From: Geodermatophilus telluris
GTDB taxonomy: Bacteria; Actinomycetota; Actinomycetes; Mycobacteriales; Geodermatophilaceae
Assembly (NCBI RefSeq): GCF_900102745.1
Contig: NZ_FMZF01000002.1
Location: 1-64,000 of the forward strand
Reading direction: 5' to 3'
DNA length: 64,000 bases
Below are positions 49,306 through 56,306 of the stretch, piece by piece. Within the stretch, counting starts at the first letter, position 1; each line of letters opens with the position of its first letter. The notes beneath the pieces were generated by a model that made no database searches, had not been told where the DNA came from, and saw only the letters and a program-made list of their open reading frames with translations. Position numbers and translations under genes: made by a program.

Positions 49306-50745
49306 CTACGCCTCGGCGGCAGCGGGAGCGGTGGTGAAGCCGGTGCGCGGCATCGCCGTCCACACCGGGTCCCAGCGGGCCAGCGCGGCGAGCAGCCCGC
49401 GCAGCCGGAACCAGGCGTGCAGCTGCCGGTAGCCGACGTTCTCCAGGGCGCCGGCCAGCAGCAGCGCGCGCAGGTCGGCCCCGCTGCGGTAGCGGTGGAA
49501 GGTGAACTCCTCGACGGCGACCACCGCGGTGGACACCAGCACGCCCAGCGCCAGCGCGACGGCCACCATCAGCGTGGCCGTGCCCGGGTCGAGCAGCCCG
49601 AGGACCGCGGCCACGACGACCGAGGCCAGCCCGAGCACCTCGACCACCGGCCCGAGCAGCTCGAAGACCAGGAAGAACGGCAGCGCCAGCAGCCCGACCG
49701 GGCCGAAGCGCGGGTTGCCCACCATCCGGCGGTGCTTCCACAGCAGCTGCGCCAGCCCGTGCGACCAGCGCTGCCGCTGGCGGCCGAGCACCGCCCAGGT
49801 CTCGGGCACCTCGGTCCAGCACACCGTCTCGGGCACGAAGACCATCCGCGAGGGCCGGCCCGCGCGGCGCAGGTGCTCCTGCAGGGTGACGACGAGCTCG
49901 GCGTCCTCGGCCAGCGACCGGGGGTCCAGCCCGCCGACCTCGACGACGGCGTCGCGGCGGAACAGCCCGAACGCGCCGGAGATGATCAGCAGCGCGTCGG
50001 CGTCGGCCCAGCTGGTGCGGCCCAGCAGGAACGAGCGCAGGTACTCCACGGCCTGGATGCGCACCAGCCAGCGCGTCGACAGCCGGGGCTCGAGCACCGC
50101 GCCGCGGTCGGTCAGCGCGGCGTTGGCCGTGCGGATCACACCGCCGGCGCCCACCACGTGGTCGGGGTCCTCGATGAAGGGCCGGGCCACCTTGAGCAGC
50201 GCGTCGGGCTCGAGCAGCGAGTCGGCGTCGACCATGCACACCAGCGGGTGGCGGGCCAGGTTGAGCGCCACGTTGAGCGCGTCGGAGCGCCGCTTGACGC
50301 TGGTCTTGCGGACGACGGTCAGCGGGTCGCCGGTGGTGGCCCGGTGCACCGAGAGCACCCGGCCCTCGACCGGGGTGTCGGCCGTCCAGCGCGGGGTGAC
50401 CGGGGTGAGGCCGTAGCGCTCGGCGACCAGCTCGAAGGTGCGGTCGGTGGACCCGTCGTCGACCAGCACCACCTCCAGCAGCGGGTAGCGCTGGGAGAGC
50501 ACCGCGGCCAGCGTGTCGAGGACACCGGCCTCCTCGTCGTGCGCCGGCACGAGCACCGAGACGCCGGGGGTGAGCGGGCTGGCGAACACCCGGTCGAGGC
50601 CCTCGGCGCCGATCCAGCGCAGGTTGGTCACCACCCGGCGGGCTCCGACGAGCACCAGCAGCAGCATCGAGGTGTCGAGCACCAGGACGTAGCCGAGCAC
50701 CGTCCAGTTCATCGTGGTGACGGCGGAGGTCAGCGCCTCGCGCAT
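49306..50745 (-). CDS. membrane GT2 glycosyltransferase (PgaC/IcaA-like)
   Basis: 479 aa. An N-terminal helix (VLGYVLVLDTSMLLLVLVGA) is followed by a GT-A domain: VLVPAHDEEAGVLDTL, VVLVDDGSTDRT, the DxD in CMVDADSLLEP, LAEDAELVVTL and the processive motif RQRQRWSHG. Three or more C-terminal helices follow. The motifs fit a processive beta-glycan synthase such as poly-GlcNAc or cellulose-like polymers; the sugar is unknown. Its ATG shares a base with the HEAT gene stop, last of a five-gene operon. Confidence 0.88.
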   Translation of the reverse strand: MREALTSAVTTMNWTVLGYVLVLDTSMLLLVLVGARRVVTNLRWIGAEGLDRVFASPLTPGVSVLVPAHDEEAGVLDTLAAVLSQRYPLLEVVLVDDGSTDRTFELVAERYGLTPVTPRWTADTPVEGRVLSVHRATTGDPLTVVRKTSVKRRSDALNVALNLARHPLVCMVDADSLLEPDALLKVARPFIEDPDHVVGAGGVIRTANAALTDRGAVLEPRLSTRWLVRIQAVEYLRSFLLGRTSWADADALLIISGAFGLFRRDAVVEVGGLDPRSLAEDAELVVTLQEHLRRAGRPSRMVFVPETVCWTEVPETWAVLGRQRQRWSHGLAQLLWKHRRMVGNPRFGPVGLLALPFFLVFELLGPVVEVLGLASVVVAAVLGLLDPGTATLMVAVALALGVLVSTAVVAVEEFTFHRYRSGADLRALLLAGALENVGYRQLHAWFRLRGLLAALARWDPVWTAMPRTGFTTAPAAAEA

Positions 50746-53784: not shown

Positions 53785-56306
53785 GACGCCCGTCCCAGCG
53801 GGGTCGCGGCGGCCAGCTCGGTGAGCCCGGGCGCGAGCGCGGCCGCCGCGGCGGCCAGCCGGTCGGTGAGCGGCGCGAGGTCGGCGGCCGGGGTCGCGGC
53901 GCGCTCCTCGAGGGCGGCGGCGAGCGCGGCCAGGGAGCCCGCGCCCACGCTGCCGGCGCTCCCGCGGAGGGCGTGCGCGGCGGCGGCGACGGCGGGGCGG
54001 TCGCCGGTGGCCACGGCGAGGGCGGCGTCGGTGACCAGCACGGCCGCGCGGTCGCGGAAGGTGGTCAGCAGCGAGGCGCGCACGGGCGCGACCTCCTCGG
54101 GGTCGTCGTCCTCGAACAGCTCGTCGAGGCGGGCGCGGACGGTGGTCAGGTCGTCGTCGACCGGGGGGAGGGCGGCGGCCGGGCGGGGGGAGGGCACCGC
54201 GGCGCCGACCAGCTCGAGCACCGCCTGCAGCTCCTCGGGCGTCCAGGGCTTGGGGAGGAAGCCGTCCATGCCGGCCTCGCGGTAGCGGGCGCGGTCCTCG
54301 GTGAGCGCGCTCGCGGTCAGCGCGACGACGGTGGTCCGGGCGCGGCCGTCGGCCGCCTCGGCCGCGCGGATGCGGCGGGTGGCCTCCAGGCCGTCGACGC
54401 CGGGCATGTGGCAGTCCATGAACACCGCGTCGTAGCCGCCGGCGCGCACGGCCTCGACCGCCCGGGCGCCGTCCGGGACGACGTCGACGGCCAGGCCGCG
54501 GGCCTCCAGCGTCACGCGGGCGACGAGCCGGTTGACCTCGTCGTCGTCGGCGACGAGCACCCGCAGCCCGGGGACGGCGGCCGCCACCGGTACCGGGACG
54601 GGGTCCTCGGCCGGGCGGGCCTGCCGCAGCGGCAGGACGACGCGGAAGGTGGTGCCCGCACCGGGCTCGCTGCAGGCGGTGATCCGCCCGCCCATCCGCT
54701 CCACCAGGCCGGCGGCGATGCTCAGCCCCAGGCCGGTGCCGCCGAAGCGGCGGGTGGTGGAGGCCTCGGCCTGGGTGAACGGGGTGAACAGGCGGCCGAG
54801 CTGGTCGCCGGTCATGCCGATGCCGGTGTCGGTGACGGCGAGGACCACGGTCGCGGCGTCGCCGTCCACGGTGAGGGTGACCGAGCCGGACTCGGTGAAC
54901 TTGACCGCGTTGGACAGCAGGTTGCCCACGACCTGGCGCAGCCGGCCGGGGTCGCCGGTGCGGTGCCGGGCCAGCCCGGGCGCGGGGGCGACGACGAGGG
55001 ACAGCCCGCGGTCGGCCGCGGCGCCGCGCACCGGCAGCGCCGCCTCGTCGAGCACCTCCAGCAGGTCGAGCGGGACCTCCTCGAGCTCGACGGCCCCGGC
55101 CTCGACCTTGGCGGAGTCCAGGACGTCGTTGACGATCCGCAGCAGCGTCCGGCCCGAGCGCTCGGCGGCGCCGGCCCACTCGCGCTGCCGGTCGTCGAGG
55201 TCGGTGTCCAGCAGCAGCGAGGTCAGGCCCAGGACGCCGTTGAGCGGGGTGCGGATCTCGTGGCTCATCACGGCGAGGAAGGCCGAGGTGTGCGCCATGG
55301 CCTGCTCGGTCAGGCGGGCCTGCTCGTCGGCGTCGGCGCGGGCCCGCTCCAGGCCGGCGATGAGGCGCCGCCGCTCGTCGTGGTGCAGCGCGACGACCAG
55401 CGCCACGATGCCGGCGACGACGACGTAGGCCTGGGCCAGCCCGGCGCGCAGCCACAGGTCGGCGACGGCGAAGGGTCCCCGCCCGCCGAGCGTCGTGACG
55501 ACGACGAAGACGCCGGCCAGGGTGACCTGCGCCGCGGCGACGGTCGGGTCGAAGCGCAGGGCGAGCCACATGCCGAAGGGCAGCAGCGCGAAGGCCACCG
55601 GGACCGGCGTGCCGACGCCCAGGACCAGCACGTAGGCGCCGGTGGTGAGGAGGGCGACCCCGGCCAGCTCGGCGAGGCGGGCCCGGCCCAGCGGGACGCG
55701 GACGGTGCCGGGGTCGACCAGCAGCAGGGCCAGCGGGGCGAAGACCAGGATGCTCGCGGCGTTGCGGACCGCCCAGGTGGCCACGGTGGCGAGCAGCGGC
55801 CCGCCGTCGAGCAGCCAGAGACCCACCGGGCCGAGCCCGCCGGTCACCAGCGCGGAGCCGACGGCGGCGGCGGCGAGCGCGCCGAGGTCGGTGGGGCGCC
55901 GCAGCCGCCACACGTCCGGGGTGCCCCACCGGCGCTGCAGCCGGGAGAAGACCGCGCAGGCCACGACCGCCTGCACGGCGTTGGCGACGCCGAGCACCGC
56001 CGCCTCGGCCGGCCCGAGACCGGTGAGCCCGTTGACCGTCCCGGCCACCGCGGCCAGCACGACGGCGTCGACCAGCAGCCGGCGCGGGTGCACCCAGGAG
56101 GCGGCCAGCCACAGCACGCCCACGGCGGCGGCCGGCCACACCAGCGCGAGCTGGGAGCCCTCGAGCCGGGTGGCCCGGCCGAGCACGCTCGCGGCCGCGT
56201 ACACGGCGGCGGCGCCGACCGTGACGACCGGCCAGGGCAGCCGCGCGGCGGTGGCCGCGAGGCGCCCGGCGGTGCCCCCGGGGCCGCTGGGGCTGCTGTG
56301 ACTCAC
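53781..56306 (-). CDS. MASE1 hybrid histidine kinase with receiver and HPt domains
   Basis: 841 aa. About eight membrane helices in the N-terminal 300 residues form a MASE1-like sensor ([44 protein letters not shown]). Then come the DHp with [17 protein letters not shown], ATPase N-box [16 protein letters not shown] and [13 protein letters not shown], a receiver with [18 protein letters not shown], and a C-terminal HPt domain with [19 protein letters not shown]. It is a complete phosphorelay in one chain, first of the five-gene operon. The start is uncertain: GTG 56306, or ATG 56378 adding 24 residues. Confidence 0.9.

Follow-up and report, generated by a model that had tools for sequence, protein, structure and literature searches.

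A receiver, a HEAT-repeat protein and a glycosyltransferase form a conserved gene triad that suggests a phosphorylation switch of polysaccharide synthesis

Within a 64,000-nucleotide stretch of the Geodermatophilus telluris genome (the window: assembly GCF_900102745.1, contig NZ_FMZF01000002.1, positions 1 to 64,000), we analysed a minus-strand run of five genes that ends with a stand-alone receiver, a HEAT-repeat protein and a family 2 glycosyltransferase (GT2), and compared it with related loci in other genomes. The run extends from 56378 down to 49306, with successive overlaps of 4, 4, 4 and 1 bases; the first three junctions read GTGA, and the last, between the HEAT and GT2 genes, reads TGATG. 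The first gene encodes a membrane hybrid sensor kinase of 865 residues (53781..56378), with a GTG start and the architecture MASE1-HisKA-HATPase-REC-HPt (Pfam matches over cut-off to MASE1 at 3e-16, HisKA, HATPase_c, Response_reg and Hpt at 2.5e-11). It is followed by a soluble PAS-HisKA-HATPase sensor kinase of 526 residues (52204..53784), flanked by a GTGA overlap at either end, in which PAS_4, HisKA and HATPase_c score over cut-off and an extra PAS slightly under it. The remaining three genes encode the receiver (REC; 128 residues, 51821..52207), a membrane-anchored HEAT-repeat protein (359 residues, 50745..51824; HEAT_2 at 2.4e-24) and a membrane GT2 (479 residues, 49306..50745; Glyco_tranf_2_3 at 8.8e-24). 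Third-position G+C reaches 0.97-0.99 across the five frames (0.99 in the first kinase), identifying them as coding rather than as chance open reading frames of a region with 78% G+C.

An earlier note, made from the sequence of this stretch alone, had described five genes overlapping by 1-4 bases and assigned domains to all five products, and Pfam agrees with each assignment. It had placed the upstream end of the run at 56306; that position is an in-frame internal GTG, an alternative start within the gene that we begin at 56378. Its statement that the run lacks a DNA-binding output also holds: among Pfam matches at E 0.001, the five proteins contain no DNA-binding, GGDEF, EAL or PilZ domain. 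For cyclic-di-GMP domains, the same statement is correct for these five proteins and fails in part for their relatives, as described below.

The receiver has residues D8, D9, D52, T84 and K106 and matches Response_reg alone, with no output domain, as in a stand-alone response regulator. Its closest NCBIfam model is PhoB, under cut-off, and it is thus PhoB-like without the DNA-binding domain. D52, T/S84 and K106 are retained in 67 of 72 aligned receivers, the exceptions being L061 and L062, in which all three are changed, and L075, L120 and L130. Spo0F, DivK and CheY are likewise stand-alone receivers with the full set of phosphorylation residues, whereas the receiver found here keeps a constant place next to genes for a HEAT protein and a glycosyltransferase. 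The HEAT protein comprises one N-terminal membrane helix (hydropathy peak at residues 10-28), followed by arginines and then a solenoid spanning approximately residues 59-345. Its AlphaFold2 model has a mean predicted local distance difference test score (pLDDT) of 87.7, with the solenoid predicted with confidence. A Foldseek search with this model returned mainly designed alphaRep protein binders, a result expected for HEAT repeats that does not point to any partner.

The GT2 carries the motifs of a processive synthase, namely D97, D173-x-D175, E280-D281 and Q323-R-x-R-W327, and columns 97, 173, 175, 280, 281, 323, 326 and 327 are kept in 87-89 of 89 aligned sequences. Hydrophobic stretches occur at residues 14-39 and 346-416. 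The best-matching solved structures are cellulose synthase chains, with BcsA at the top (5ej1, phmmer 3.8e-11). BcsA is a GT2 synthase with the same D, DxD, ED and QxxRW motifs, but it carries a PilZ domain and responds to cyclic-di-GMP, whereas the window GT2 has no PilZ match in Pfam and has a HEAT partner gene. Neither the HEAT protein nor the GT2 matched any NCBIfam model over its cut-off; the best model for the GT2, the poly-GlcNAc synthase PgaC/IcaA (TIGR03937), scored 104.7 bits, far under its 422.3-bit cut-off, and the partner genes differ.

We searched GT2, HEAT and receiver profiles over the same 96 Geodermatophilaceae genomes. GT2 matches at 1e-20 were found in 32 genomes, 25 of which hold close orthologs of 69-100% identity; the GT2 loci in G. 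dictyosporus, G. tzadiensis and G. obscurus are 96, 96 and 90% identical, respectively, to that of the window. Close orthologs of the receiver, HEAT protein and GT2 are jointly present in an identical set of 25 genomes and jointly absent from the other 71. Within those 71, HEAT matches occur only in G091 and G034, each with a divergent GT2 of the same type, and no receiver match was found at 1e-35. The GT2 matches in the five remaining genomes belong to another GT2 type (G028, G043 and G075) or cover only a piece of the ortholog of about 70 residues (G051 and G082). A 4-base overlap joins the receiver and HEAT genes in the window and at all 24 other loci of the family, the start codons being assigned by proximity to the window alignment. 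HEAT-GT2 spacing is mainly -1 or -4, with three loci at 14, -11 and 47, and 4-base overlaps occur at both triad junctions in eight family loci. At nine control loci in the family with GT2 genes of another type (L063, L064 and L136-L142), no HEAT or receiver gene was found in the stretches scanned; L065 was excluded from the controls, having a 70-residue C-terminal GT2 piece and, on the opposite strand, an overlapping receiver-HPt frame. By comparison of sequences, the last three genes, REC-HEAT-GT2, are strongly supported as the conserved unit.

The two truncated pieces derive from the GT2 C-terminus and lie in genomes of the same genus that lack the module, at G051:C24:14288-14497 (69% identity) and G082:C9:77996-78211 (63%). 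They are likely remnants of module loss.

The two kinases are not part of this unit. A same-strand kinase pair upstream of the triad occurs in the window and at only 4 of the 24 other family loci (L036-L039), and the five-gene order was therefore rejected as a conserved unit. The earlier note had proposed a search for this order in other Actinobacteria; the full order is rare even within the family, and it is the last three genes that are kept far beyond it. At the 20 other family loci (L040-L059), a divergently read hybrid kinase lies beside the receiver in place of the window's pair, with one additional kinase further upstream at L040 and L051. The four divergent kinases checked by Pfam show a CHASE3-HisKA-HATPase-REC-REC-HPt architecture, with a HAMP match in three. 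Within the family, the sensors have thus been exchanged, whereas HPt, receiver, HEAT protein and GT2 have remained. An HPt domain is found in the neighbouring kinases at all 25 family loci (in the window by Pfam and at the other 24 by profiles, four of them Pfam-checked), and the window itself pairs a hybrid kinase comprising HisKA, HATPase, receiver and HPt with a separate receiver, the arrangement of an HPt phosphorelay. In a mirror-tree comparison of 50 loci with all parts, distance correlations among the core proteins were 0.862 (GT2-HEAT), 0.872 (GT2-receiver) and 0.878 (HEAT-receiver), and those between the core proteins and the nearest kinase were 0.529-0.547.

Beyond the family, the GT2 profile matched at 1e-50 in 19 of 296 genomes of the class and in 51 of 296 of the phylum, the window genome being counted in both. 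We took the 18 other class loci and 40 of the 52 places newly found in the phylum, the 12 omitted including partial and lowest-scoring ones; a weak match in Mycobacterium (L035) was not used. Together with the family loci, those with at least 2.5 kb upstream gave 80 Actinomycetota loci (L095, L101, L109, L123 and L126 fell short of this length). A HEAT gene directly precedes the GT2 gene in all 80, in 79 by profile and in L133 by a Pfam match over cut-off. At 65 loci a same-strand receiver directly precedes the HEAT gene: 57 of these are receivers alone by profile, five form the end of a GGDEF protein, two are double receivers and one is a receiver-kinase. At eight more loci, the receiver before the HEAT gene lies on the opposite strand; seven of these have a REC-GGDEF gene further upstream, and L114 has a receiver gene and a kinase. 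In one family-level group (L099, L100, L102, L105, L106, L111, L112 and L114), a stand-alone receiver is located on the opposite strand just before the HEAT gene.

Some of these loci show unusual frames. In L112, the HEAT protein and GT2 share one open frame of 938 codons (4985-7798, minus strand), a single case that could be a natural fusion or an assembly error. The GT2 frame in L104, L113, L116 and L121 continues for about 140 to 780 residues after the point where it usually stops. Pfam gives no additional match at 0.001 there, and the extension may be either a long domain or a spurious continuation of the frame.

The HEAT-GT2 pairing extends to other phyla and to archaea. A haloarchaeal (Haloarcula) GT2 query gave 14 plasmid records at 1e-30, of which we examined 12, leaving out two more Mesorhizobium ciceri records; three weaker records (Sphingomonas, Prevotella and Novosphingobium) and 75 others lay outside the survey. 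In each of the 12, the GT2 gene is preceded by a HEAT or HEAT-like gene, although the Emticicia gene scored 25.0 bits, under the 27.7 cut-off, and the basis was a profile match in unannotated sequence for Paenibacillus and the record's annotation for Legionella. Seven of the 12 also have a receiver within the gene string. It directly precedes the HEAT gene in Haloarcula and in Salinirubellus, where both REC-HEAT-GT2 junctions are 4-base overlaps; a small gene intervenes in Halosolutus, and a TPR or YaiO gene does so in the Alphaproteobacteria Erythrobacter, Mesorhizobium and Devosia, while the Emticicia receiver lies about 370 bases off. With HEAT-GT2 in 12 of 12 plasmid loci and the receiver in 7, the pair is the more widespread combination, and a receiver often joins it as a third gene. 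On the Erythrobacter plasmid, the REC-TPR-HEAT-GT2 string sits within a flagellar gene cluster.

Two known types of gene set are among the systems closest to the module. On the Mesorhizobium, Legionella and Emticicia plasmids, the same GT2 gene comes after a HEAT or HEAT-like one, and the string also holds a YaiO-type outer-membrane gene, which is absent from the five overlapping window genes; the Mesorhizobium string also has receivers, an HPt gene and a gene annotated as ATP-binding that is a hybrid kinase by profile. We found no functional study of this YaiO-type set in the literature searched. In the accessible parts of the reports on Clostridium perfringens NELoc-2, a HEAT-repeat gene adjoins a GT2 gene (PMC2879425, PMC11677781), and no receiver is listed beside them; VTC, CotH and deacetylase genes are found instead. 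The literature searched, which covered few subscription papers, contained no description of receiver, HEAT protein and glycosyltransferase as a named system, although a name may exist. We class the module as a putative polysaccharide system of the synthase-dependent kind, governed by a two-component switch.

We propose that the three genes REC-HEAT-GT2 together form an output module for the synthesis of a polysaccharide, extracellular or at the cell surface, and that phosphorylation switches this synthesis through a chain of kinase, HPt, receiver, HEAT protein and synthase. Of the explanations considered it is the likeliest, and we place it very near an even balance, just on the doubtful side. 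In this scheme, the sensor kinases would autophosphorylate, and the stand-alone receiver would obtain phosphate from the hybrid kinase by way of the receiver and HPt that this kinase carries. In one of its states, phosphorylated or not, the stand-alone receiver would dock on the HEAT solenoid in the cytoplasm. The solenoid, kept close to the GT2 synthase by its membrane anchor, would then open or block synthesis. The chain is supported by the conserved gene order, the joint presence and absence of the three genes, the phosphorylation and catalytic residues, the HEAT helix and solenoid and the HPt domain at 25 family loci. The control loci, the triad in haloarchaea, the core distance correlations, the exchange of sensors with HPt kept and the shared HEAT-GT2 frame of L112 count on the same side; from these features we infer the HPt-to-receiver phosphotransfer, the receiver-HEAT docking, the HEAT-GT2 contact, the polymer and the sign of control.

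Several observations weigh against this proposal. Mirror-tree correlation and joint loss are also expected from the co-inheritance of any operon and speak for shared inheritance, not for binding. The HPt step, which the earlier note placed before the stand-alone receiver, is kept throughout the family but is not general, as an HPt-bearing hybrid kinase was found near only 5 of 56 loci outside it (L102, L105, L106, L111 and L112); at many of the others, the kinase is a plain HisKA-HATPase one or none was found. No receiver was found next to the HEAT gene at 7 of the 80 Actinomycetota loci or within the string at 5 of the 12 plasmid loci (Deinococcus, Planococcus, Bacteroides, Legionella and Paenibacillus), implying that HEAT-GT2 can work without one. 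The receiver-like proteins of L061 (7422-7889) and L062 (7782-8216) score under the Pfam cut-off and lack the phosphorylation residues. In a tree of 191 receivers, those of the core fail to group as a single clade, with 14 label changes; this tree, unresolved and from an incomplete search, neither shows nor excludes a single origin and was not used as support. The AlphaFold2 model of the GT2, built from five close sequences, has a mean pLDDT of 41.9, too poor to show a polymer channel or to serve in a fold search. Lastly, GGDEF domains occur at 18 of the 80 Actinomycetota loci: upstream at 12 (counted as a same-strand protein within 3.5 kb), downstream at 5 and in the GT2 frame at 1, so that cyclic-di-GMP may share or replace control by the receiver. 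In this last case, L107 (3473-6406, minus strand), the frame continues into a C-terminal GGDEF over the Pfam cut-off (978 residues read, on a draft contig), which may be a synthase-cyclase fusion or a draft-assembly artefact. It lowered our confidence in the phosphorylation chain from an even balance to slightly less, and slightly raised that in a cyclic-di-GMP alternative.

By that alternative, the HEAT-GT2 pair is the synthase, the receiver feeds a diguanylate cyclase elsewhere, and cyclic-di-GMP is the true switch. The GGDEF genes just described, several of which encode REC-GGDEF-REC proteins among the upstream cases, speak for it, as do 32 GGDEF matches and one PilZ match in the window genome. 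In one family member, L060, a REC-GGDEF-REC gene (8500-9798, minus strand) directly precedes HEAT-GT2, and similar proteins are found in L086, L096, L097 and L110; in L060, L086, L096 and L097, however, the protein still ends in a receiver next to the HEAT protein. The five window proteins are free of PilZ, GGDEF and EAL matches, 62 of the 80 loci have no GGDEF in the counted range, and REC-HEAT-GT2 is present in haloarchaea, which are generally considered to lack cyclic-di-GMP. We consider this alternative unlikely, though still to be taken seriously.

The receiver could instead act as a phosphate shuttle or sink between kinases and other regulators, sharing only transcription with the HEAT and GT2 genes. 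Such roles are well known for single-domain receivers such as Spo0F, and the HEAT-GT2 strings without a receiver, in four of the plasmid genera and, by profile, in Paenibacillus, would be in keeping with them. One would expect a shuttle to go along with its kinases; that the receiver remains with HEAT-GT2 while the kinases change counts against one, as does the shared presence and absence of close receiver, HEAT and GT2 orthologs over the 96 genomes, and we regard this role as rather unlikely. It seems to us improbable that the GT2, rather than making a polymer, glycosylates a lipid, carotenoid or protein, the HEAT protein serving as a carrier or targeting subunit. The sub-cut-off NCBIfam matches of the GT2 do include non-processive enzymes, and no sugar-nucleotide gene was recognised by eye among the partly scanned neighbours of the window locus. 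Yet the processive-synthase motifs, including QRxRW, are kept in 88 of 89 aligned sequences, a YaiO or TPR gene lies beside HEAT-GT2 in Gram-negative relatives, and sugar genes accompany two of the plasmid loci, with a nucleotide-sugar dehydrogenase near that of Legionella and GlmS and a sugar-phosphate nucleotidyltransferase beside that of Halosolutus. The C. perfringens NELoc-2 locus also holds a polysaccharide deacetylase with its HEAT and GT genes (PMC11677781).

The preservation of the triad while the adjoining kinases change, in many bacteria and some haloarchaea, suggests a widespread phosphorylation switch of polysaccharide synthesis. Where membrane polysaccharide synthases are switched post-translationally, the best-known mechanisms rely on cyclic-di-GMP. 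More tentatively than for the chain itself, we speculate that REC-HEAT-GT2 could represent a cross-domain class of synthases switched directly by a phosphorylated receiver, with a HEAT protein in the membrane as the adaptor. Such a class would parallel PilZ/cyclic-di-GMP control without needing a second messenger, and its upstream sensor kinases would be interchangeable; in some lineages, both signals would converge on one docking point through a receiver-cyclase-receiver protein. The module spans Actinomycetota, Alphaproteobacteria, Bacteroidota and haloarchaea and, if the proposal is true, would provide a second general link between sensing and the extracellular matrix, one that could account for rapid control of matrix synthesis in organisms that lack cyclic-di-GMP.

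The receiver-like proteins of L061 and L062 sit directly before HEAT-GT2 in a divergent copy of the module, and a pseudo-receiver kept for binding would fit their altered residues.

Other elements flank the run in the window. Immediately upstream of the kinase genes lies a MerR-type regulator, TipA-like by eye (56496-57251, minus strand). Between it and the first kinase is a perfect 34-base palindrome (56436-56469), present as a single copy in the window and without an exact copy in the 135 loci compared, which may be an operator or a terminator. Downstream, 137 bases past the GT2 gene, a 102-residue protein (P0006; 48863-49168, minus strand, start codon picked by us) has no Pfam or NCBIfam match; by tblastn, a 73% identical counterpart follows the GT2 gene in L032 and L036, which represent one species, and in no other scanned locus.

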